Positions 1-60,570 of a DNA stretch of 64,000 nt are shown here, piece by piece; the first letter of the stretch is position 1; the number at the start of each line of letters is the position of its first letter. Both the position numbers and the translations under genes were made by a program. The stretch is from Zasmidium citrigriseum (Eukaryota > Ascomycota > Dothideomycetes > Mycosphaerellales > Mycosphaerellaceae), in NCBI GenBank assembly GCA_002786025.1, contig NHNW01000017.1, forward strand, positions 1 through 64,000, given 5' to 3'. Under the pieces are notes generated by a model. It was given only the letters and a program-made list of their open reading frames with translations, was not told the DNA's origin and ran no database searches.

Positions 1-461
1 GCCTACTTCTCGCGGATAGATAGTAATTAAGGATTTAGATTTCTCCCTCTTCCGAGATCTACTATAGTTAGATTACTAGTTCGATCTAATAGAAGACCGT
101 ATAGGATAGGGAAAAGGCGAATCTATAACGACTTTATACCTTACGACGATCGATAACGAGCGGTAGTAGAAGGTAGTTATAGCTTAGATAGTTCGAGAGG
201 ACTAGTACCTCGAATTCGTTATCGTATAGCGAGGGATCGTAGGTTAACGGTATTAGTATATAGTATAAACTAAAGGGTAAAAGTCTTAGTGTTCCGTAGG
301 CCGACCGCTTTATATAGTTACTTACGTATAGCTTCTTGTCTTACTTATCTACTTCCCTACTCTCGCGGCCTATTCTTACCGTCTATTAGAGAGCTCTAAT
401 ACTCCTTCTAGGCCTAATATTATCCGTTACGTTAGCGTAGATATCTAAATATATATCGTAG

Positions 462-529
462 ATAGCGTTAACGGCGCGCTAGGTGTACGTATAGTAGCGC
501 GTTAAAGCTTAACGCGCCGTTAACGCTAT
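462..529. repeat. 17-bp perfect inverted repeat in RIP block
   Basis: The arms at 462-478 and 513-529 (ATAGCGTTAACGGCGCG and its exact reverse complement) are separated by 34 bp. They could be a sub-terminal repeat of the dead transposon. No matching terminal copy was found at the other end of the block. Confidence 0.6.
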
Positions 530-1319
530 AGGAGTAGGGGCTTAGCGATAACGCGTGCCCTCTATTAATAACGCTTATATAGTATTATACTAGTATATAT
601 AATATACTATCGCTCTCGACTTTAGATTAAAACCCTCCGTATATAGGCTACCTCTATACGATATACTAGGCGTACGGGAAGTATTTCTATCGCCTAGAGG
701 GCGTATAGAGACACCTATAAACCTACGGCGCTACTAACGACCTAGAACGTATAATCTATGTCGACGACCTAGTAGATAGTCTAATACTTAACGTAGATAT
801 ACTAGCCTAGGCCCGGCCGTAAGTTAGAGAAGAGGATTACGGATAGGAAGGGTTGGAAGTTCTAGAATAGATACCGTTTAACGCTAAAGAAGACGATAAA
901 CAAGAAGAGTTAGAACTTCTAGATTAGGTGCCGTATAACGCGGAAGAGGATAACGATAAGATACTACTACTATAAGGGCTATTTAATACCTATACTAGGG
1001 TTAACGACAACTTATAGGGTAGAGAGGTAGAAAGTAGAGTCTCTAGTACTACGAGACTCTATAACGTCTAAGATAGTATAGATACGGGCGATACGACCGA
1101 CGATAATAGCGAATCTATCTACTCTAGTAGCTCGATTCGCATAGGCTATAGATAGCTCTCTATAGCAAGTAATCCGGATAACTATAATATTATAATATTT
1201 AAAGAGAGTACTAGAAAGAAGGTAGGAACGTAGCTTTACCCGTACGTTAGATATTATTATAGTAACGGCGACGACTAATACTCCGATATAGAAATACCGT
1301 ATATACTAGACGATTATTA

Positions 1320-4109
1320 GACGAAATAGGTATATTTGACTCCCTATTCGACTCTTCTTTCGTAAGATAGCTACTAGAAGAGAAGGTATTAGCTAAAGTA
1401 ATTACTCGCCTCCTTATAAATCTAGTACTTAAGCCTCTTTACGAACTACTAAGCTAGCGGAATCCAATCGAGCTTAAGGACAAGATAGAGTAGATAGGTA
1501 GCTCTTTATTAGGGCGATTAGGCTAGTAGTAGAGAGGTAAGATATTAGTAGCTATAGGACGTAGTACTAATAGAGCGATAAGGTATCTATTTAGGTTTCG
1601 TTCGCCGCTAGACGGAGTTCGTTTCCTTATAGGCTATAACGGATTTAAAGATAACCTAATATACGCCCTATACCGGATAATAATAAAACAAGAACCTAGG
1701 AGCTAGATCTACGGTAAGATAGCGTCTATAGACTAGTAGTAGCGGATATAAGATTCGCTCGGTATAGATAGCGTAACGATCGTACTAATTATTATTATAA
1801 GTAACAAGACGTAGGTAACGAATTACTAGGGAAACCTTACTTCGTATCTAGTATATATAACGATTAGTAACCTTCTAGAAGACGTACGGTGCTTAAACAA
1901 CCGCCTAGCTAGTATACTCTTAGCCTAGCTACTAGTTATTAAGGATAGAGACCTCGTTACCTAACTCTAGGTACTATACGACTATATAAACTAATTGTTC
2001 GACCCTATCCGCCGACTTAGATACGGAGACGGAGTAGACATTAAGTATACGGACGGCTATATATAGCGATACTTCCCTATTATAGTAGCGATATCGATTA
2101 ATTACGAGGAGTAGGTTAAGATAGTATACGTTAACTCTCGAAACTACTATCCGCTATATCTTATCTACTCTAACTAGCGCGAGAACCTCGAAATTGTAGC
2201 TAAATAGTATACGTATAATAATACTAAGCGCTAGTAGAGGAAGTAATAGTACCGCTAGTCTAGGGCTAGTAAAGGCGACTAAAGCAAGAAGAGGAAAAGT
2301 AAGGCCTTATACGAGTCGGACGATAAGGACGATCTAGTATAGGACGTCTACGATATAGAAAACTTCGCGTAGGGATACCCTAAGGTAAATATCTATAAAA
2401 CGCTTATCGTTAATATCCTATACTAGCTACTAAAGGGAGTACTTTATTACACCTTAACTTGGACGACGAAGCTTTTAACGGAATAGATACGGAAACGTAC
2501 TACTAAAAGAGTTAAGCGCTAGATAGCCTACAACCTAGGCTAGAGTATAAAAAGAGGTAAGGCCGCCGTACCTATAGAGGCGATTACCGATATTATCGAC
2601 TAACGGTTTATATCTATACCGCTATACCCTAATACTAAGGTCTTCCGCTATTTCTCTAAGGTTAAATAGTAGATAGGCAAAGAATAGAAGAGCCTACTAC
2701 GATAGATATTACTAGTGTTTACGCCGCTATTAATAGAGGCTAATTAGATACTAGCCTTAAATTTTATATAGGCTATAGTAGACTTTATCTTATTAGCTAT
2801 ATACCCGAGCTACGACAATAATACCCTACGATATATAGACCTAGCGTTATTCTAAATAAACGAGCTTCGGGACATATTTTTATACTTCTAACTACGATAT
2901 AGCGATAGAGAAGAGGAAGGGGAAGGATACTTTAATTTCCCTAAGTAGTATACTATAATATACTATCTAGAGATAATCCGACGATTCGGCGGTACTACTA
3001 GGTAAGAGACTAGATTATTCGAGTATAACTACGTTAAATGTATTAAGAATACCTTTAAGCTTACTAATAAGAAGAATAGTTAGGAGGACTAGATTATAGA
3101 CGCCGAGAAGCGTAGGATAAACCTTTAGACCCGCTTCGACGATACTCTACTCTTTTAAAGGCTAACTCGGACTAAAGAGCTAGAACGTTTGTTAATACCT
3201 AATAGACCGACTTAAGCGGTAGATATCCCTAGTATATTCGGATAGCCGAGGAAGACGTTAAACGTAGGCCTCCCTATTAATAACGACTACTAGAGAATAG
3301 TCGCGGAGGTAGAATCGATACTCGGTAAGACTAAAGGCTAATATTTCCGTAGAGTAATAGCTACGTTTATGCGCGAGAATCGGCTACCTCCTCTAGTAAT
3401 AGTATTAGCTAAAGGTAAGTATAGACAGCCTAATCTAGATAAGATCGTAGAAGACGACGAATAGGTACTACTACTCCGTTTAAAGTTCTATTTATCCGCG
3501 AGGTATTGGAAAAGGACGGGCAAATCTCGATCTAATCTAGACGTAGTAGAGTAAGACTTCGTCTAATATATACGTTTATAGTAGAGAGTTTAAGGCTACG
3601 AGAGACACGACTAGATATAGATATAAGAGTATACTACTAGTACGGACGACACGGCTAAAGATATACCGTTTAAGGGTATACTACCCGCCTAAGCAAAACT
3701 AATCGTTATAGTAGAGGACTAAGCGTTAAGCGTTAATAGCGAAGGTATAGGCACTAAGAAGGATAAGGACGATACCTAGTTTACTAGTCGCGCTCCTATA
3801 CTAGAATATACTAGGGTATTCGTTAAACTATACTAGCCGAAGGAGAAGGATAGCTCGGTAGATAAGACATATAGTATAATAGTAATTAAGCGTATACTAT
3901 TAGTACTAGTACATAGCCTCTTATAAGGTAGACAGATATATAAACTCTCGTATATTACTTATACTATCTACGTAGTACTAGTCGATAAAGCCGAGCTAGA
4001 TAGAGACAAGTTTATTAATAACACGGCCGACTTCGAGACTTATAATATATTGTAGAACGTAGAGTAGAAGGCGGAGGTCGCTCGGGTAGTAGTAGACGTA
4101 CGCTCGTAA
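1320..4109 (+). pseudogene. Plavaka/KDZ-type DNA transposase, killed by RIP
   Basis: Codons starting at positions divisible by three form one continuous frame of about 930 codons with no frameshift. It is broken only by TAG and TAA codons of the kind RIP makes from CAG, CAA and TGG. Conserved blocks of the fungal Plavaka transposase family are readable in the right order. Around 1596-1680 is the segment matching the family's 'RDP..-I.-L-G...-F' block. Around 1761-1860 is 'SNKTQ...N.Q-G', matching its SDKTQ block. Near 2090 is 'YEEQ', matching its ADYPEQ block. Near 2640-2690 is the G-K-E-x-K-S block, and at 2931-3060 are NFPK, then IIRRFGG, then TNKKNS. The C-terminal part continues to a stop at 4107. 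Catalytic integrity cannot be judged because many codons are altered. The true N-terminus is unclear: a different frame looks coding just before 1320, so an intron may lie there. Confidence 0.75.
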
Positions 4110-4329
4110 CGCTAATCTAGATCGTAACTATATATCGCTCTATAGAAGCGCTTCGATATTAGTTTCGAGCAGCGTATACGTATTAGGCGGCGTAAACATA
4201 TACGTATACCGCGGCGTAATTGTATCGAGCGGCGTAAGGACTACGAGTAGGCTAAGCTACTTAGCGCGTTAACGCCGCGCCTTATATATATCTTCGCGCT
4301 TCTCGAACTACCTTAGCCCGCTTAGCCTA

Positions 4330-4890
4330 CTCGGTATCCTTAACTACGCTCGCCTTTTAGGTTTTCTAGACGTAGATCTATATACTTTATCTCTATACTA
4401 ATAAGTACTGCCTTTAATAGACTACTATTACTAATACTTATAAGATCTCGAGCCTACTCTTCTCTAAGCTTCGTAAGAGGGATAATCTATAGCGTTATAC
4501 GCCTAGTTAATACTATAAACCTCTAGAATACGAGACTTTTACCGAGTCCTATACGCCTAATAAAGAATATATCCTATCTATAGTATATTAGACTAACTAG
4601 TATATCTACCTACTCTAGCTTAGGCTAGAAACCTTTCCCTAGATATAACTTCTCTAATACCTAAGTTAGGCCTATAGTAACGATAGCGCGGATATATTTA
4701 GACTACTACTCGTCTTCTAATACGATAGACTCGTATACTAATACTTAAAGGTCCTCTAATATATAACTAACGATAGTAGTTATTTAATAACTAACCTAAC
4801 GCTTAAATTCTATATCTCTGCGAGGTACCTACTATTTAATATATCTATTAGGTATAGGCCGACTCGTATCCGATAAAGAGGCGGGCCTAA
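4330..4890 (-). pseudogene. RecQ-like helicase remnant, RIP-mutated and truncated
   Basis: On the minus strand a frame interrupted by RIP-type stops reads a Walker A region (G-L-G-K-S-L-V-F-Q, about 4520-4550). It is followed by a stretch resembling helicase motif Ia (I-I-P-L-T-K-L plus E-E-Q, about 4445-4490) and 'AVLISIE' (about 4390-4415). This order is that of DEAD/RecQ helicases, where a 'GKS' loop is followed by 'PL..L..DQ'. The sequence stops resembling a helicase near 4330, before the DEAD-box and the second RecA lobe, so the copy is truncated at its C-terminal end. The upstream part, to about 4890, also reads as protein but is not diagnostic. It could belong to the same element as the transposase or be a separate nested element. 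Confidence 0.55.
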
Positions 4891-5640
4891 ACTTATCGAG
4901 CCTTAGGCGAACGCTCTTCTTCTAAAACCTACTACCTTACCTATACTAACTCTTTACTACTCTACTCTTAGTTATACTTAGTTATATACTAGGCGAATTA
5001 TTCCTATTAAGACTAGCCTAGCCTTCGATATAGATAGATCTAGTTACTCGCTTTTCGATACTAGTAGTATTAGCTAGATTTAGATATAGTATAAATATAT
5101 TAGGAGTAAGAGATTGTAGAGGAGTCTAACTAGAGCTACCTAGACTATCCTCTAACGTTATAGTATTAGTAACTCGCTATTAGACGTCTACCTACCCTAG
5201 TATTAGGACTACCTCTTCGACTTAATAAGTTCTAATATATATCTAATACGATAAAAATATATATAGAAGCTTATAGAGCTAACTCGTACAATTATACTTA
5301 TATATTAGAGTAGTATTAGAGGTAAAGTTTTAAGTATATTATCGCTATTAGAGGGAAATTAGCTAGACTAGTTACATAATAGGCGCGCGGCCCTACGACG
5401 CTAGCGATAATATATAGTATATAAATAGTAACGTATCTATAAAAATTAGATAGAAATACTTACCTTTATATACTATATAAACGATATAGTTAAATTTTCG
5501 ATAATAATCGAGACAACTAAGATATCGCGTCTTAAATAGACCGCGTTAAGGGTATTATAATAACCTAATACTAAAAAAGTTACTAAATAGGATTAGACTC
5601 TCTATAGAGGTATTTAAGTAGTAGGCCGTATAGTAGGTTT

Positions 5641-5923
5641 AATAGACGTGCATAGAGGGAAGTGTCCGATTAGTAGACTTGGATAAGCTATATCGGAGTC
5701 GTGTCGGAGCGAAATCCTTTACGTAAACACGGCCCGCAAACACCTCGATGGAGGGTCTGACTCACGTGAGATAGGCCTGCCCCTCATCCCGATGCAACCT
5801 CACCTCGAGGTCTCGACTCTGTTTTGCAACATCAATTTACGCCACCATCCTGGACGCCTATTGAACTTCATACAGATATCGTAGAAGGACGGAATTTGAT
5901 GGTATCTTGCTTCAGTCGATGAA
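5641..5923. other. Transition from RIP block to gene DNA; PhyH upstream region
   Basis: CA and TG dinucleotides return across about 5640-5730. The remaining 190 bp is the only upstream sequence left for the dioxygenase gene. No clear TATA box is visible. Confidence 0.5.
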
Positions 5924-6901
5924 ATGACACGTACCAGCAATGGAACGGCCAACGGCAACGGACTCTACAATCAAGAAGTCCACCAAATACATATTTCGGA
6001 CTCAGCCCGAGAGGCAGGGACTGCAAGCCCAGAAATCATCGCTGAAGCGGTAACATATCTCCATCGAGATGGAATTGTCGTCCTGGAGAACGTGATTGAC
6101 CCCTCTCACGTAGACGCTCTTCAGGCCAAGCTAGGACCAGAGGCAGAGGAGATCGCACGGAATCCAAAACATCACTTCAATTGGAACAAAGGAAACATGG
6201 ACCAGGCCCCGCCTTTGATACCGGACCTTATGTATCAAGACGTCTGGGCAAACCCGATTGTGGTATCTGTTCTTTCGTCAATCCTAGGACCATCGCCCGT
6301 TTCCCATTATGCGAATGGCAACACTGCTCTCAAATCGACCGCGAGGCAACCAGTACACAGCGACATAGACAAGCCGCACCCGCTATATCCTTTCGCATAC
6401 GCTGTCAATATCCCGCTCTGCGACGTCTCGATTGAGAACGGTTCGACGGAGATCTGGGTCGGCAGCCATAGAGATAGCAACATCGACCAGCATAACGAGT
6501 ATGCCGATGGCGAGTACGATTTGACGATTAGGCCTGAGCTCTTAGAGGAGAGAAGACAACATTCGCCTCCTATCCAGCCTTCAACGAGGAAAGGCAGCAT
6601 CATTCTTCGAGATATTCGCTTGTGGCATGCTGGCATGCCGAATACAACTACAACGCCGAGAATTATGCTGGCTTTTGTTATTCAGCCCAAGTGGTTCCAA
6701 GCTCCATCGAAGGTTCTCCTGCCCTTGACAGCGAAGAAGCTGGTCCAACAGTGGCAAGCAGAGACTGGGCTGGAGTACGCTGCCAAATGGGTCGATGGCG
6801 AAGTCGACCACAAGCTCGTGAGCTCTGATGAAGTCGACTTCAGTACCAGAAATACGAAGCTGCTGGAGCTGAGCGACATGATGCGACCAGAAGTACATTA
6901 G
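5924..6901 (+). CDS. Phytanoyl-CoA dioxygenase (PhyH) family oxygenase
   Basis: Single-exon protein of 325 residues. The PhyH fold is indicated by the facial-triad pattern His145-x-Asp147 (Q-P-V-H-S-D) with distal His235 (L-W-H-A-G) and Arg246, which would bind 2-oxoglutarate. These are Fe(II)/2-oxoglutarate-dependent enzymes. Fungal members often act in secondary metabolism, but the substrate here cannot be deduced. There is no signal peptide. It converges on the MFS gene, with only 63 bp between the two stop codons. It starts about 190 bp from the edge of a RIP-mutated repeat, so its promoter may be exposed to silencing or RIP leakage. The alternative of a primary-metabolism phytanoyl-CoA hydroxylase is less likely, because no peroxisomal targeting tripeptide is present at the C-terminus. 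Confidence 0.88.
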   Translation: MTRTSNGTANGNGLYNQEVHQIHISDSAREAGTASPEIIAEAVTYLHRDGIVVLENVIDPSHVDALQAKLGPEAEEIARNPKHHFNWNKGNMDQAPPLIPDLMYQDVWANPIVVSVLSSILGPSPVSHYANGNTALKSTARQPVHSDIDKPHPLYPFAYAVNIPLCDVSIENGSTEIWVGSHRDSNIDQHNEYADGEYDLTIRPELLEERRQHSPPIQPSTRKGSIILRDIRLWHAGMPNTTTTPRIMLAFVIQPKWFQAPSKVLLPLTAKKLVQQWQAETGLEYAAKWVDGEVDHKLVSSDEVDFSTRNTKLLELSDMMRPEVH

Positions 6902-11766: not shown

Positions 11767-12581
11767 GGGCAAGGTCTCGAGAAAGTGGCCGCCCTGAAAC
11801 ACTTCTAATCACTGGACTGGTGGCTCTGTGTCGGAGACTCCTTGCGAGATAGCACCTTCTTACCACATCGAATGGACCTCATCGCCGCCTCCCTTCCTTG
11901 CTCTTCGTCTTGATGATTTCATTGATGGCCCGTCCTCAGCCAGTGGAACCACTGATACTGATCTCAAATGTGGCGACGCAGCTTCGCATTTGCACAGTCT
12001 CTCTCCGCATGAACGACCTGTAGAATATGTTACTCAAGGCCTGGTTGGCATGGAGATTTGCGTTGAGGTTGAGAAACGACAATTTTTCCAACGTGCCGCC
12101 GGACGTTCGGAGCATGCCACACCAGTATTGTGATGATTGAATATCTCCCTCCCCTTTCTCGGGTGCTCTGTTCTCTTGCAAGACGTTAACGCTTTTGAAT
12201 GCTGACCGTTTCATTCACACTCCTTTCGTTTCTTACGATATCCTGGAGTACTCTGGGATGTTTCGAGGGAAGTATGGGCCATGGAAATGCAGAAGGAGAG
12301 GTGAAAAAGTGATGTCACGACCTGAGCTCGGCGAAAGCGGTCGAAATTCGTTCCCGTCCGAACACAGCTCAAACCGATGCCACGCTGCCCGAAGTCCTCC
12401 TGCTATCGATCGTAATGGAACATAACGATGAGCTCAATATAAACGACGTCGATTTACACAAAAAGGATTACCAGTAAGGTCCAGCTGTGAGCCAGCCAAG
12501 TAGAGCAAAAAAGAAGGTTGTATTTAACGTTTCCTGCTTGATTGTTAGTGATTGTTGAATGCACCGTTGCTACGATATGCT
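11767..12581. other. Intergenic region, no protein gene seen
   Basis: Only short unconvincing frames occur here. An A6 run at 12507-12512 (T6 on the minus strand) lies about 70 nt past the 3' end of the tRNA-like gene and could serve as a distant Pol III terminator. Confidence 0.5.
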
Positions 12582-12720
12582 CACCGAAACGGGGAATTGA
12601 ACCCCGGCCTTGTCGGCACTTGCAATGAGAGCGACAAATCCTAGCCACTTTGTAATGAGTTAGTAACTACTCGAGGTGATGCAGTTGATCGAAGGGTTGA
12701 TGTACCTAGACCATTTCGGA
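12582..12720 (-). tRNA. tRNA-Glu(CTC) gene interrupted twice, D-loop insertion with spliceosomal intron features
   Basis: Read on the minus strand from 12720, TCCGAAA (acceptor), TG and GTCTAG (start of the D-arm) are followed by a 58-bp insertion (12705-12648). The gene then resumes with TGGCTAGGAT. The anticodon stem TGTCG/CGACA pairs perfectly around a loop with anticodon CTC (12629-12627). Nine extra bases (12625-12617) sit after position 37, the canonical tRNA intron site. The T-arm CGGGG-TTCAATT-CCCCG is intact. The 3' acceptor strand TTTCGGT plus discriminator G pairs with six of seven 5' bases; the first pair is a U-U mismatch. Removing both insertions leaves 72 nt, the normal length for tRNA-Glu. 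The D-loop insertion splits box A, so normal Pol III initiation is doubtful. It may be a pseudogene or an unusually processed gene. Confidence 0.8.
12648..12705 (-). other. 58-bp GT-AG insertion with TACTAAC branch motif in tRNA D-loop
   Basis: The insertion begins with GTACAT and ends with CAAAG, with TACTAAC placed 12 nt before the terminal AG. Length, ends and branch-site spacing match the spliceosomal introns of the protein genes in this window (49-71 bp, several ending in AAG). Its precise removal restores the canonical GTCTAG-TGGCTAGG D-arm sequence. Confidence 0.75.
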
Positions 12721-13538
12721 GTGTGATTGGTTGAGAGGAACGCAGAAAAAACCTATCATAATGCTTGCATTAATGCCGGGGTACAGGAAGAGGTCGGAAG
12801 CCTTCAGTTGCCGATTCTCCCGCTTCAGCATTTCCCACGCACCCAATTTTGGCGAGACCATCTATTACTGCTCATTCTACAATCTAACAGCCTCTTACCA
12901 CCGAGACATACTGGACAATGTTGCAGAAGATCGCAAGATTCAAAAGTGAGATCAATATAATTGATTTTGATCAAGAAGCGTTAACGACATGAAGTAGATC
13001 GAATACGATAGGAGACGCATGACAGTAGACACGATCTCCTCTTCCAACAAGCGCATTCCTGCTTTGCTGAAAGGTTTGGAGTAGAAGTTCTTGTGACCGA
13101 TTGGGCCAAGCTCGTGACATCTCTGCCCGATACTGCGGGCAAAGCGGAAGGGCCAAGGGCACGTAAGCGCTGTACAGACACAAATGGGTGAGACTTTTCA
13201 CCAAAATCTCGAGGCGAGAATGGCTTCAATAGTGTGTCACTGTTGATTGAGATAATTTTTGTTGATCTGATGTCTTGGCAGGCTTTCATTAGATTGAGTC
13301 CGGCGAAAGAAGGACACGTTTGGATGATGGCACCCCAATTTGACTCCACTCGCCTGGAGATCACGACGGAAAACGCTTCAGGCATTGGAGAGTACGACGA
13401 AATTCGTTCAATTTGTTCATCACCTCGTTCTACAAAGGTCAACGCCCGTTATGAGTCGCCAAAACACCAAAGAAGTTTCGCATGTCGATGGCCGTTGCCA
13501 GTGGCCTGGTTCTTGGCTGAATGAAGGAGAGAGAGGTT
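12721..13538. other. Intergenic region, nothing recognised
   Basis: There are short frames only. No tRNA, repeat or conserved protein fragment was seen on either strand. Confidence 0.5.
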
Positions 13539-59200: not shown

Positions 59201-60570
59201 GTCGTTGAATCCGAGATGGGATGAGACTGTGGACATCTTGACCACCGGCCCGCTGAATGTTATTGCCACTGTTTGGGACTGGGATGCGCTGGGTGATCAC
59301 GACTGCCTGGGACGAACCAGCTTGAAGCTCGACCCCAACCACTTCAACGACTACTTGCCTCGTGAGTACTGGCTGGACCTTGATACACAGGGACGAGTGC
59401 TTGTCAGAGTGACAATGGAGGGCGAACGAGACGACATCCAATTCTACTTCGGCAAGGCATTCAGGACTTTGAAGCGCACCGAACGAGACATGACGCGAAA
59501 GATCACCGACAAGCTCTCTGCCTACATTCAGCAATGTCTGTCGCGACGAACACTTCGAACCCTGACATCTTCGTCCACGCCTGGTATTGCTGGAGTCAGC
59601 ATGAACACAATGCGCGGCTATTTTTCGAAAATGTCGGGACAAGTCTCAGGTCGACCAACGTCTGTCGCACAGAATCCGGCACCGAGCGCCGCCAACATTG
59701 CTGAAGCTGCGAACAACGCTTTGAAGCCTCTGCTGCAGTACTTTGACGATAATTTTGCGATTATGAAGCAGACGCTGACCGACAGTGCGATGATCATGGT
59801 CATGACCAGGTTGTGGAAGGAGGTGCTCGTGACGATTGAGGGTCTGTTGGTTCCACCTTTGAGCGACAAGCTCTCTGCGCAGAAGCCTCTTAGTATGCAA
59901 GAGGTGGATGTCGTTTATAGGTGGCTGCAGGTGAGTTCAATTTAACCCCGAGAGACAATTGACCGTTTGCTAATGACATTGATAGATCCTCTTCGACTTC
60001 TTCCTCGCCTTCGACCATGAGCGTGGCGTCGCCGACGGTGTCCCAATGGACGTCCTCAAATCGCCCAAGTATCATGACCTCCAGAATCTCAACTTCTTCT
60101 ACTTTGAATCCACCGATAACCTCGTCCGCACATCCGAGAGCATGGCATCCGCGACAGCTGCTCGCCAGCAAGAACAAACAGCTCGTCTAAACCGCCTCTC
60201 AGCACCTGCTGGCTTCCTATCACCAGCGCTCGGTGGCACCCGCCGCTCAAAATCCATCATGCAAAGCCGCAACCTAGGCACAATGCGCAAAGCGAAAGAA
60301 GAAAAGCGCAAAGAAGCCCAAGCCGACCCCAACGACGACATGATCCTCCGTATCCTACGCATGCGCCCCGAAGCCGAGAAATATCTCAAAGACCGCTCGC
60401 GACAGAAGGAACGACTCGCTGCTGCGGCTGCCGCCGCAGCGATTGTTAGACAGAGTATGCAGGCTAAGCAGGGTATGGGCCATGGACCTAGTCAGAGTCT
60501 GGGTGGTGCCGGGCGTGGTGGATTGCAGAGGGGTGGTGCGGGGAGGGTTTGGGGGACTATTAGGGAGTAG
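56250..60570 (+). CDS. UNC13/Munc13-like MUN and C2 domain protein
   Basis: Exons 56250-59930 and 59986-60570 (intron 59931-59985) give 1421 residues, with the start in a perfect CCACCATGG context. The protein is largely helical, with MUN (MHD1/MHD2) regions at about 540-830 and 1140-1290. A C2 domain lies at about 938-1060 (F-T-I-K-I-I-E-A-E-D-L; L-S-D-P-Y-V-V-L; W-D-W-D-A-L-G-D-H-D) with acidic loops able to bind calcium. The C-terminus is basic and Ala/Gly-rich. Fission yeast Ync13 and Git1 share this design. Ync13 links vesicle fusion and cell-wall integrity at division; Git1 acts in glucose/cAMP signalling. It is expected at the plasma membrane and sites of growth. Confidence 0.9.

Follow-up and report, generated by a model that had tools for sequence, protein, structure and literature searches.

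Spliceosomal-type introns outside position 37/38 in at least 23 nuclear tRNA genes of the fungus Zasmidium citrigriseum

A stretch of 64,000 nucleotides from Zasmidium citrigriseum (contig NHNW01000017.1, positions 1 to 64,000; hereafter the window) was analysed. For a conserved gene of the window, the top protein match is in Zasmidium cellare (90% identity), followed among named matches by Dothistroma, Pseudocercospora and Zymoseptoria (79-76%), which makes a host in the Mycosphaerellaceae most likely. On its minus strand lies a tRNA-Glu(CTC) gene in three exons, interrupted by two spliceosomal-type introns and by a canonical intron at position 37/38 of the tRNA (Table 1). Neither Rfam nor ARAGORN reported any tRNA in the raw window. 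A first-pass annotation had described a minus-strand tRNA-Glu(CTC) split in the D loop by a 58-nt GT..TACTAAC..AG insert, had read it as a spliceosomal-type intron within a nuclear tRNA gene, and had proposed running a tRNA finder with and without bases 12648-12705. ARAGORN made no call on the uncut gene and called tRNA-Glu(CTC) once these 58 bases were removed; the insert was thereby borne out, and its reading as a spliceosomal-type intron is supported by the results below. Removal of the insert had also been said to yield a 72-nt tRNA. The Glu(CTC) call was indeed restored, but a 72-mer is reached only when the 9-nt 37/38 intron is taken out too, and this 72-mer still has a U1:U72 mismatch. 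When intron 2 is excised as well, the end becomes CGGAA and the acceptor stem is paired throughout, so that removal of all three introns leaves a tRNA of 72 nt. The 3' end previously assigned to the gene, 12582, falls within intron 2 (12534-12584), which had been overlooked. Exon-exon junctions predicted for the Glu genes include TGGTCTAGTGGCTAGG and CCCCGTTTCGGAA, and, written as two halves, TGGTCTAG/TGGCTAGG and CCCCGTTTCG/GAA.

Table 1. Features of the tRNA-Glu(CTC) locus and a comparison mRNA intron, in window coordinates
Feature	Position	Strand	Basis
tRNA-Glu(CTC) gene, three exons	12531-12720	minus	ARAGORN and sequence
Exon 1, tRNA 1-15: 5' acceptor strand, U8, D-stem 5' strand, A14-G15; first part of box A	12706..12720	minus	ARAGORN and sequence
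Spliceosomal-type intron 1, 58 nt, D loop 15/16, GTACAT...TACTAAC...AAAG; box A split	12648..12705	minus	cloverleaf scoring and ARAGORN
TACTAAC, branch-site motif of intron 1	12659..12665	minus	sequence
Exon 2, tRNA 16-70; holds box B and the canonical 37/38 intron	12585..12647	minus	ARAGORN and sequence
Anticodon CTC (34-36)	12627..12629	minus	ARAGORN cloverleaf; coordinates by count
Canonical tRNA intron 37/38, 9 nt, TTGCAAGTG; expected tRNA splicing endonuclease substrate	12617..12625	minus	ARAGORN
Box B, intact, GGTTCAATTCC	12593..12603	minus	B-box pattern list
Spliceosomal-type intron 2, 51 nt, 3' acceptor strand 70/71, GTGAGC...CACTAAC...CAG	12534..12584	minus	sequence and ARAGORN
Exon 3: GAA = G71 A72 and discriminator A73	12531..12533	minus	ARAGORN
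T6 run, 18 nt past the mature 3' end, probable terminator for Pol III (CTTCTTTTTTGC)	12507..12512	minus	sequence
mRNA intron, C2/MUN-domain protein gene, 55 nt, GTGAGT...GCTAAT...TAG	59931..59985	plus	gap in tblastn of homologues of that protein

When the window locus was used as a DNA query against the whole genome, one other match emerged, a paralogue on contig C138 (C138:102636-102786). It carries introns at both of the same sites, GTCAGT...TTACTAAC...CAG as intron 1 and GTCAGT...CAACTAAC...CAG as intron 2. The mature parts of the pair, as first cut, are identical at 71/72 positions, and the introns have identities of 0.66 (intron 1) and 0.63 (intron 2) against a shuffle baseline of 0.52 (s.d. 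0.04), which is approximate since its numerator and length came from two separate shuffles. Four paralogue pairs behave in this way: mature identities are 71/72, 72/74, 68/72 and 66/72, first-intron identities are 0.66, 0.58, 0.63 and 0.61 (shuffles 0.49-0.52, s.d. 0.03-0.04), and the first introns retain GT, branch site and AG at an identical site. With similar exons and diverged intron interiors, the tRNA and its splice signals are conserved as the interiors drift, and in the Glu pair some common descent is still visible. A divergent Glu(CTC) gene (L119, C104:88330) has no spliceosomal intron; the window gene therefore need not be essential, and the idea that the two interrupted Glu genes are the only source of tRNA-Glu(CTC) was ruled out. 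Directly upstream of both interrupted Glu genes (window 12721-12730; C138) stands CCAATCACAC; CCAATCA is also found within 45 bases upstream of Asp a, Asp b, Ala, Gln-TTG, Ser-CGA and Met, and TATA-like stretches lie about 40 bases upstream of several genes.

The genome (44.4 Mb, 148 contigs) was then surveyed for similar genes. B-box-like sites were collected with patterns covering GG..CC T-stems, one list covering 100 of 295 places, and an intact box B was a search requirement for most of the genes found. At most TGG..CCA and AGG..CCT sites 60 bases downstream were covered, so introns on the 3' side lay out of view there. A cloverleaf scorer was applied to 137 sites, once to the uncut DNA and once after GT...CTRAY...AG segments had been taken out. 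Thirty-five exceeded thresholds that we set ourselves, 19 of them only, or with a better score, after GT-AG removal and 16 without any such intron. ARAGORN, applied to 127 sites, called 23 uncut and 14 more only after removal. Allowed a canonical intron of 60 nt, it called the interrupted genes L033, L051, L056 and L067 uncut, two of them with a different anticodon, and for three of its 14 post-removal calls (L042, L043 and L045) it arrived at other cuts and other anticodons because the script retained the solution with the fewest cuts. An unspliced fit is also possible for Val-AAC a, Val-AAC b and Ser-TGA, whose uncut scores are 28.9, 32.8 and 35.9. Asp-GTC b, Ala-CGC, the second introns of both Glu genes and two Lys-CTT genes were added by reading the sequence.

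In total, at least 23 nuclear tRNA genes of 17 isoacceptors contain 38 complete spliceosomal-type introns, one to four per gene; one further intron, in Lys-CTT b, has its 3' end beyond the DNA covered and is outside the 38. What had been noted as a single case thus has a paralogue with introns at both same positions and belongs to a pattern in 23 tRNA genes: the earlier observation is real and understated. Asp-GTC, Gln-CTG, Glu-CTC and Val-AAC are represented by two genes each and Lys-CTT by three, and single genes were found for Ala-CGC, Arg-TCG, Gln-TTG, Gly-CCC, Leu-CAG, Leu-CAA, Met-CAT, Pro-CGG, Ser-CGA, Ser-TGA, Thr-CGT and Val-CAC. Ala-CGC has four introns, and Asp-GTC b has three, the end of the third and the last exon being located in further downstream DNA.

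Acceptor, D, anticodon, variable and T arms are all hit. By hand count from the spliced cloverleaves, introns lie at 4/5 (Ala, Arg, Thr), 9/10 (Gly, Met), 15/16 (both Glu, both Asp), in the 16-19 part of the D loop (Gln-TTG, both Val-AAC), at 21/22 (Pro), 24/25 (Arg), 26/27 or 27/28 (three Gln, Ala), in the variable region (Asp a, Val-CAC, Pro, Ala, Leu-CAG, Ser-TGA), at 50/51 and 51/52 (Gln-TTG, Asp b), 54/55 (Lys b, Lys c), 62/63 to 64/65 (Thr, Ala, Leu-CAA, Ser-CGA) and 69/70-70/71 (both Glu, Asp b, Arg, Lys a, Lys c). Position 37/38 holds none of the 38; it is occupied by a separate intron, as scored, in 19 of the 21 tabulated genes. Spliced lengths, which are partly set by the loop limits of the scorer, are 72 nt in 14 of these 21 genes, 74 in both Val-AAC genes, 80-81 in the two Leu and two Ser genes, and 85 in Lys a, a result of the scorer's solution for that gene, which combines a long variable arm with a canonical intron of 2 nt. 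Exons can be as short as 3-4 nt of mature tRNA at some ends and 10 nt in one inner exon. Imperfect stems remain in Gly-CCC and Met-CAT.

Four sites (L085, L104, L107 and L113) gave no tRNA solution and L120 fell under the scorer's thresholds, and the AGG..CCT repeat sites L164, L171, L175 and L176 were dropped for low scores. Several loci are tRNA-like by sequence or ARAGORN, scored below the thresholds and enter neither tally: L031 and L043 (Tyr-like), L103, L109, L117, L135, L137 and L160. An Rfam tRNA search of the same genome returned at least 42 matches, many of them on C41 and C51, which we take to be mitochondrial contigs; it scored 63 of 1309 candidates and is no census. As expected, the D-loop-intron pattern had no match in prokaryote genome contigs or viral contigs.

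Other tRNA-like sequences were seen along the way. On C3, C11, C39, C55, C85, C94 and C138, AGGTTCGATTCCT sites are paired about 207 bases apart (for example L175 and L176) in DNA that is AT-rich where read; they form a repeated tRNA-like element, perhaps mutated tRNA-derived repeats. L137, L138 (C78) and L160 (C94) make up a small tRNA-like family (for example GCTGAYCTGG...GGTCAGC) with odd, differing anticodon loops, and T runs follow downstream in two of the three within the sequence read. L030 (C49:1634-1796) is a 163-base tRNA match above the Rfam cut-off on an AT-rich contig, for which the scorer gave no spliceosomal solution. In the window itself, positions 1-6000 are an AT-rich block (GC 0.38 against about 0.53 elsewhere) that resembles a mutated repeat island.

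The 38 introns are 48-78 nt long. All begin with GT and end with AG, and 36 contain CTRAY within the last 30 nt, against 4.0 in shuffles, with 9-15 nt from the branch A to the 3' end; the two introns that lack CTRAY are both in Ala-CGC. Since GT, AG and CTRAY served to find most of the introns, these frequencies are partly circular. Less so are the preferences for G at position 5 (35/38) and T at position 6 (29/38) of the 5' splice site and, among 3' ends, for CAG (24) over AAG (6), the remaining eight being TAG. Seven introns (the two Glu intron 2s, three in Lys and two in Ala) were found via tRNA structure, their splice ends also being sought by eye. The tRNA introns are built like the mRNA intron of the C2/MUN-domain protein gene in the window, and the ordinary spliceosome of the fungus should therefore recognise them.

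Dinucleotide controls were used to judge how often such a result arises by chance. Excision of GT-AG segments rescued or improved 19 of the 137 B-box sites, compared with 0-4 loci for 15 wrong 5' dinucleotides and 1-7 for 15 wrong 3' dinucleotides; candidate segments numbered 157-368 in the controls and 284 for GT-AG, and no control rescued a locus beyond the GT-AG set of 19. When any segment of 20-120 nt could be excised, 7 of 14 single-intron cases had the annotated intron among their top-scoring cuts, and in the remaining cases an end-shifted cut scored 1-2 points above it. Structure thus fixes the cut to within a few bases, and the exact site comes from the splice motifs.

These controls bear on the possibility that the interrupted copies are decaying pseudogenes whose GT-AG appearance is due to chance. 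In its favour, eukaryotic tRNA genes with extra insertions have mostly been regarded as pseudogenes (PMC4090602), and one other Glu(CTC) gene, L119, is without introns of this type. Against this stand the wrong-dinucleotide controls and the four paralogue pairs, with their similar mature sequences and diverged introns. Moreover, the acceptor stems of Glu, Asp b, Arg, Ala and Lys close only once a further intron is out, and a genome search with the spliced Lys sequence recovered no uninterrupted close Lys-CTT copy. On the dinucleotide controls and the paralogue comparison we rejected this explanation, which we hold to be extremely improbable.

Could the inserts be non-canonical tRNA introns, cut by the tRNA splicing endonuclease at a bulge-helix-bulge (BHB) as in nucleomorphs, Cyanidioschyzon and archaea? 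Endonuclease-type introns of this kind are described for a few eukaryotes (PMC4090602), and ordinary 37/38 introns are present in most of the genes found here. In a simple pairing test, distinct from a full fold, the central 4-bp BHB helix could form at 3 of 38 junctions, where random partners gave 1.9; three pairs were reached at 9 of 38, and intron 1 of the window gene forms one of the four pairs. The GT, branch site, AG and length of the introns match those of an mRNA intron, whereas the inserts of the Guillardia nucleomorph are 3-24 nt long (PMC4090602). With no excess of helices at the 38 junctions, excision of the BHB type was rejected and is judged very improbable.

We next considered which polymerase would transcribe the genes. 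A run of five or more T is a Pol III terminator. Of the 21 tabulated genes, 20 have such a run beginning no more than 43 nt past the mature end, compared with 69 of 3960 random 45-nt windows taken from long loci; the 21st gene, with 50 nt of downstream DNA covered, has TTTTCTTTTATTTT. One of the 38 introns contains TTTT, the expectation from dinucleotide shuffles being 5.4 and the minimum among 200 shuffles 2. The T runs and the intronic shortage of TTTT fit putative transcription by Pol III. Introns interrupt box A in Glu and Asp. All 21 tabulated genes retain an unbroken box B, in a search biased to intact box B. In two tRNA-Lys(CTT) genes (L204 on C66 and L205 on C61), box B itself is split by an intron at 54/55 (predicted T-loop junction GCGGGT/TCGAGCC), a situation that seems hard to square with ordinary Pol III initiation. 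The start of the intron in L204 happens to resemble a new box B (AGTTCGACTCT); L205 has no such resemblance.

These split promoters leave room for another reading, by which the genes yield long, capped Pol II transcripts that are spliced while being made, the tRNA being released afterwards from the spliced RNA. In its favour are the usual coupling of the spliceosome to Pol II, the split box B of Lys-CTT b and c and the split box A of Glu and Asp. However, the T runs downstream of 20 of the 21 genes and the shortage of TTTT in the introns would be expected of Pol III but not of Pol II, and all 21 tabulated genes have an intact box B, although for most of them the search required one. We consider transcription by Pol II improbable. 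The first-pass annotation had supposed the window locus to be either dead or transcribed by Pol II; box B, the T run past the mature 3' end and the scarcity of intronic TTTT point to Pol III instead, and the conserved exons speak against a dead locus.

Spliceosomal signals inside a structured RNA of Pol III type are present not only in the tRNA set but also in a U6-like gene of this genome. That gene (L206, C59:490950-491109) has a GTAAGT...TACTAAC...CAG intron just after the GGCC of the conserved core, and its score of 30.7 bits is under the Rfam cut-off of 44, as expected of an interrupted copy. A second U6 match (C117:112082-112180) spans the model in 99 bases and looks uninterrupted, at 42.2 bits also below the cut-off; a third, on C72, is partial.

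The architecture of these genes recurs across the genome, with conserved exons and splice signals and with terminators downstream. The window gene is very probably one of at least 23 nuclear tRNA genes that have U2-type introns outside 37/38, their pre-tRNAs being made by Pol III, spliced by the spliceosome and then processed by the Sen complex. Pol III would transcribe the genes from the remnants of boxes A and B and stop at the T run. The spliceosome would then take one to four GT-AG introns out of the uncapped pre-tRNA, which would fold only after this step. RNase P and tRNase Z would trim the ends, and the tRNA splicing endonuclease and ligase would remove the separate 37/38 intron last, to give what we infer to be functional tRNAs. 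PMC4090602 presents the Sen complex as thought to measure from the tRNA body. Because the 37/38 intron could then be cut only once that body exists, spliceosomal splicing would come before folding. Making these tRNAs probably needs the spliceosome.

How far the cell would depend on such splicing is seen best for Lys-CTT, for which all three genes found are interrupted; the search with the spliced Lys sequence recovered only these three. The existence of L119 limits an argument from copy number to Lys-CTT, and even there it is weak because 4 of 16 genes used as queries in the same search (Asp a, Gln-TTG, Pro and Ala) missed themselves. Among Lys codons in six ORFs of the window, AAG leads by 150 to 65. 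Since the search may miss genes and tRNA-Lys(TTT) may read AAG, dependence on the interrupted Lys-CTT genes is an argument and no proof.

As to origin, the introns may descend from introner-like mobile introns that spread in the lineage, tRNA genes included, which would be compatible with spliceosomal splicing of Pol III transcripts. Introner-like elements, GT-AG introns of lineage-specific gain, occur in related Dothideomycetes. By hand count, the same positions (4/5, 15/16, 27/28, 63/64 and 69/70-70/71) are used in different isoacceptors. An all-versus-all comparison of the 38 introns, on the other hand, revealed no sequence family beyond the Lys b/c pair and one 14-nt match, and the Glu locus matched only its own paralogue in the genome DNA search, at the sensitivity of that search. 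Recent introner copies were rejected in the absence of near-identical copies among the 38 introns and, for the Glu locus only, in the genome-wide search, a test that detects recent copies only. The proposal that a mobile introner had struck one gene is not supported: at least 23 tRNA genes are affected at more than a dozen positions, and the introns share no family beyond the pair and the match just named. Descent from introners is on balance unlikely; an old introner origin that divergence has since erased is conceivable.

In textbook accounts tRNA splicing proceeds without the spliceosome, and the common view places most Pol III transcripts beyond its reach. U6 introns are known in several fungi. 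Searches of open full-text papers, as distinct from subscription papers and preprints, turned up no nuclear tRNA gene described as having a spliceosomal intron. For tRNA the finding is thus without a precedent that we could find, and spliceosomal introns in Pol III non-coding RNA genes are already known. PMC5832005 names U3 and U6 as the sole small structured RNAs for which frequent interruption is known, and gives 6-36 nt as the distance from branch site to 3' end in fungi. Like the tRNA introns, those of fungal U6 snRNA and U3 snoRNA are GT-AG introns with a CTRAC branch site in a small structured non-coding RNA (U6 being a Pol III gene), but they number one or two in one gene type, whereas here 17 tRNA isoacceptors carry one to four each, mostly beside a 37/38 intron.

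The introns described here differ from the canonical ones removed by the Sen endonuclease and ligase, which accompany them in 19 of the 21 tabulated genes (for example the 9-nt intron of the window gene), in their position elsewhere in the tRNA and in their spliceosomal signals. PMC4090602 describes eukaryotic introns outside 37/38 as rare and counts those of nucleomorphs and C. merolae among the substrates of the endonuclease; the word stem spliceosom is absent from that paper. Archaeal, nucleomorph and C. merolae introns resemble ours in that several can occur per tRNA, in the D, T and anticodon arms (PMC4090602); they are of the endonuclease type, with a BHB in archaea and C. merolae, whereas ours show no BHB excess, are 48-78 nt long and have GT-AG ends and a branch site. 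For archaea, tRNAscan-SE 2.0 seeks non-canonical introns with BHB models (PMC8450103). The spliceosomal introns in the rDNA of lichen fungi also lie outside Pol II genes, and yeast spliced one of them out of a Pol I transcript (PMC8527467); there the setting is Pol I, rRNA and few introns, here it is tRNA genes with Pol III-like terminators. The introner-like elements of Dothideomycetes belong to the same fungal class, and the tRNA introns differ from them in having no repeat family.

It is likely, on the sequences gathered here, that this lineage has undergone a genome-wide invasion of Pol III genes by spliceosomal introns, up to four per tRNA and even within box B, and that its translation would depend on the spliceosome and then on the tRNA endonuclease, some tRNAs (Lys-CTT, by the copies found) being obtained only via the spliceosome. 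About half of the tRNA genes found are interrupted (19 of 35 passing loci), which would break two general rules on the splicing of tRNAs and of Pol III transcripts. Standard tRNA finders could miss such genes, as ARAGORN did at the uncut window locus. The genes would offer a natural system for asking whether the spliceosome requires Pol II, a cap or long exons. Intron gain becomes directly testable as well: with a target RNA of 72 nt whose structure is known, species can be compared base by base for insertion sites and losses. If the proposed pathway is true, the spliceosome would be a general tRNA-maturation enzyme in this fungus, and a copy of the gene for its own U6 RNA would need the spliceosome too.
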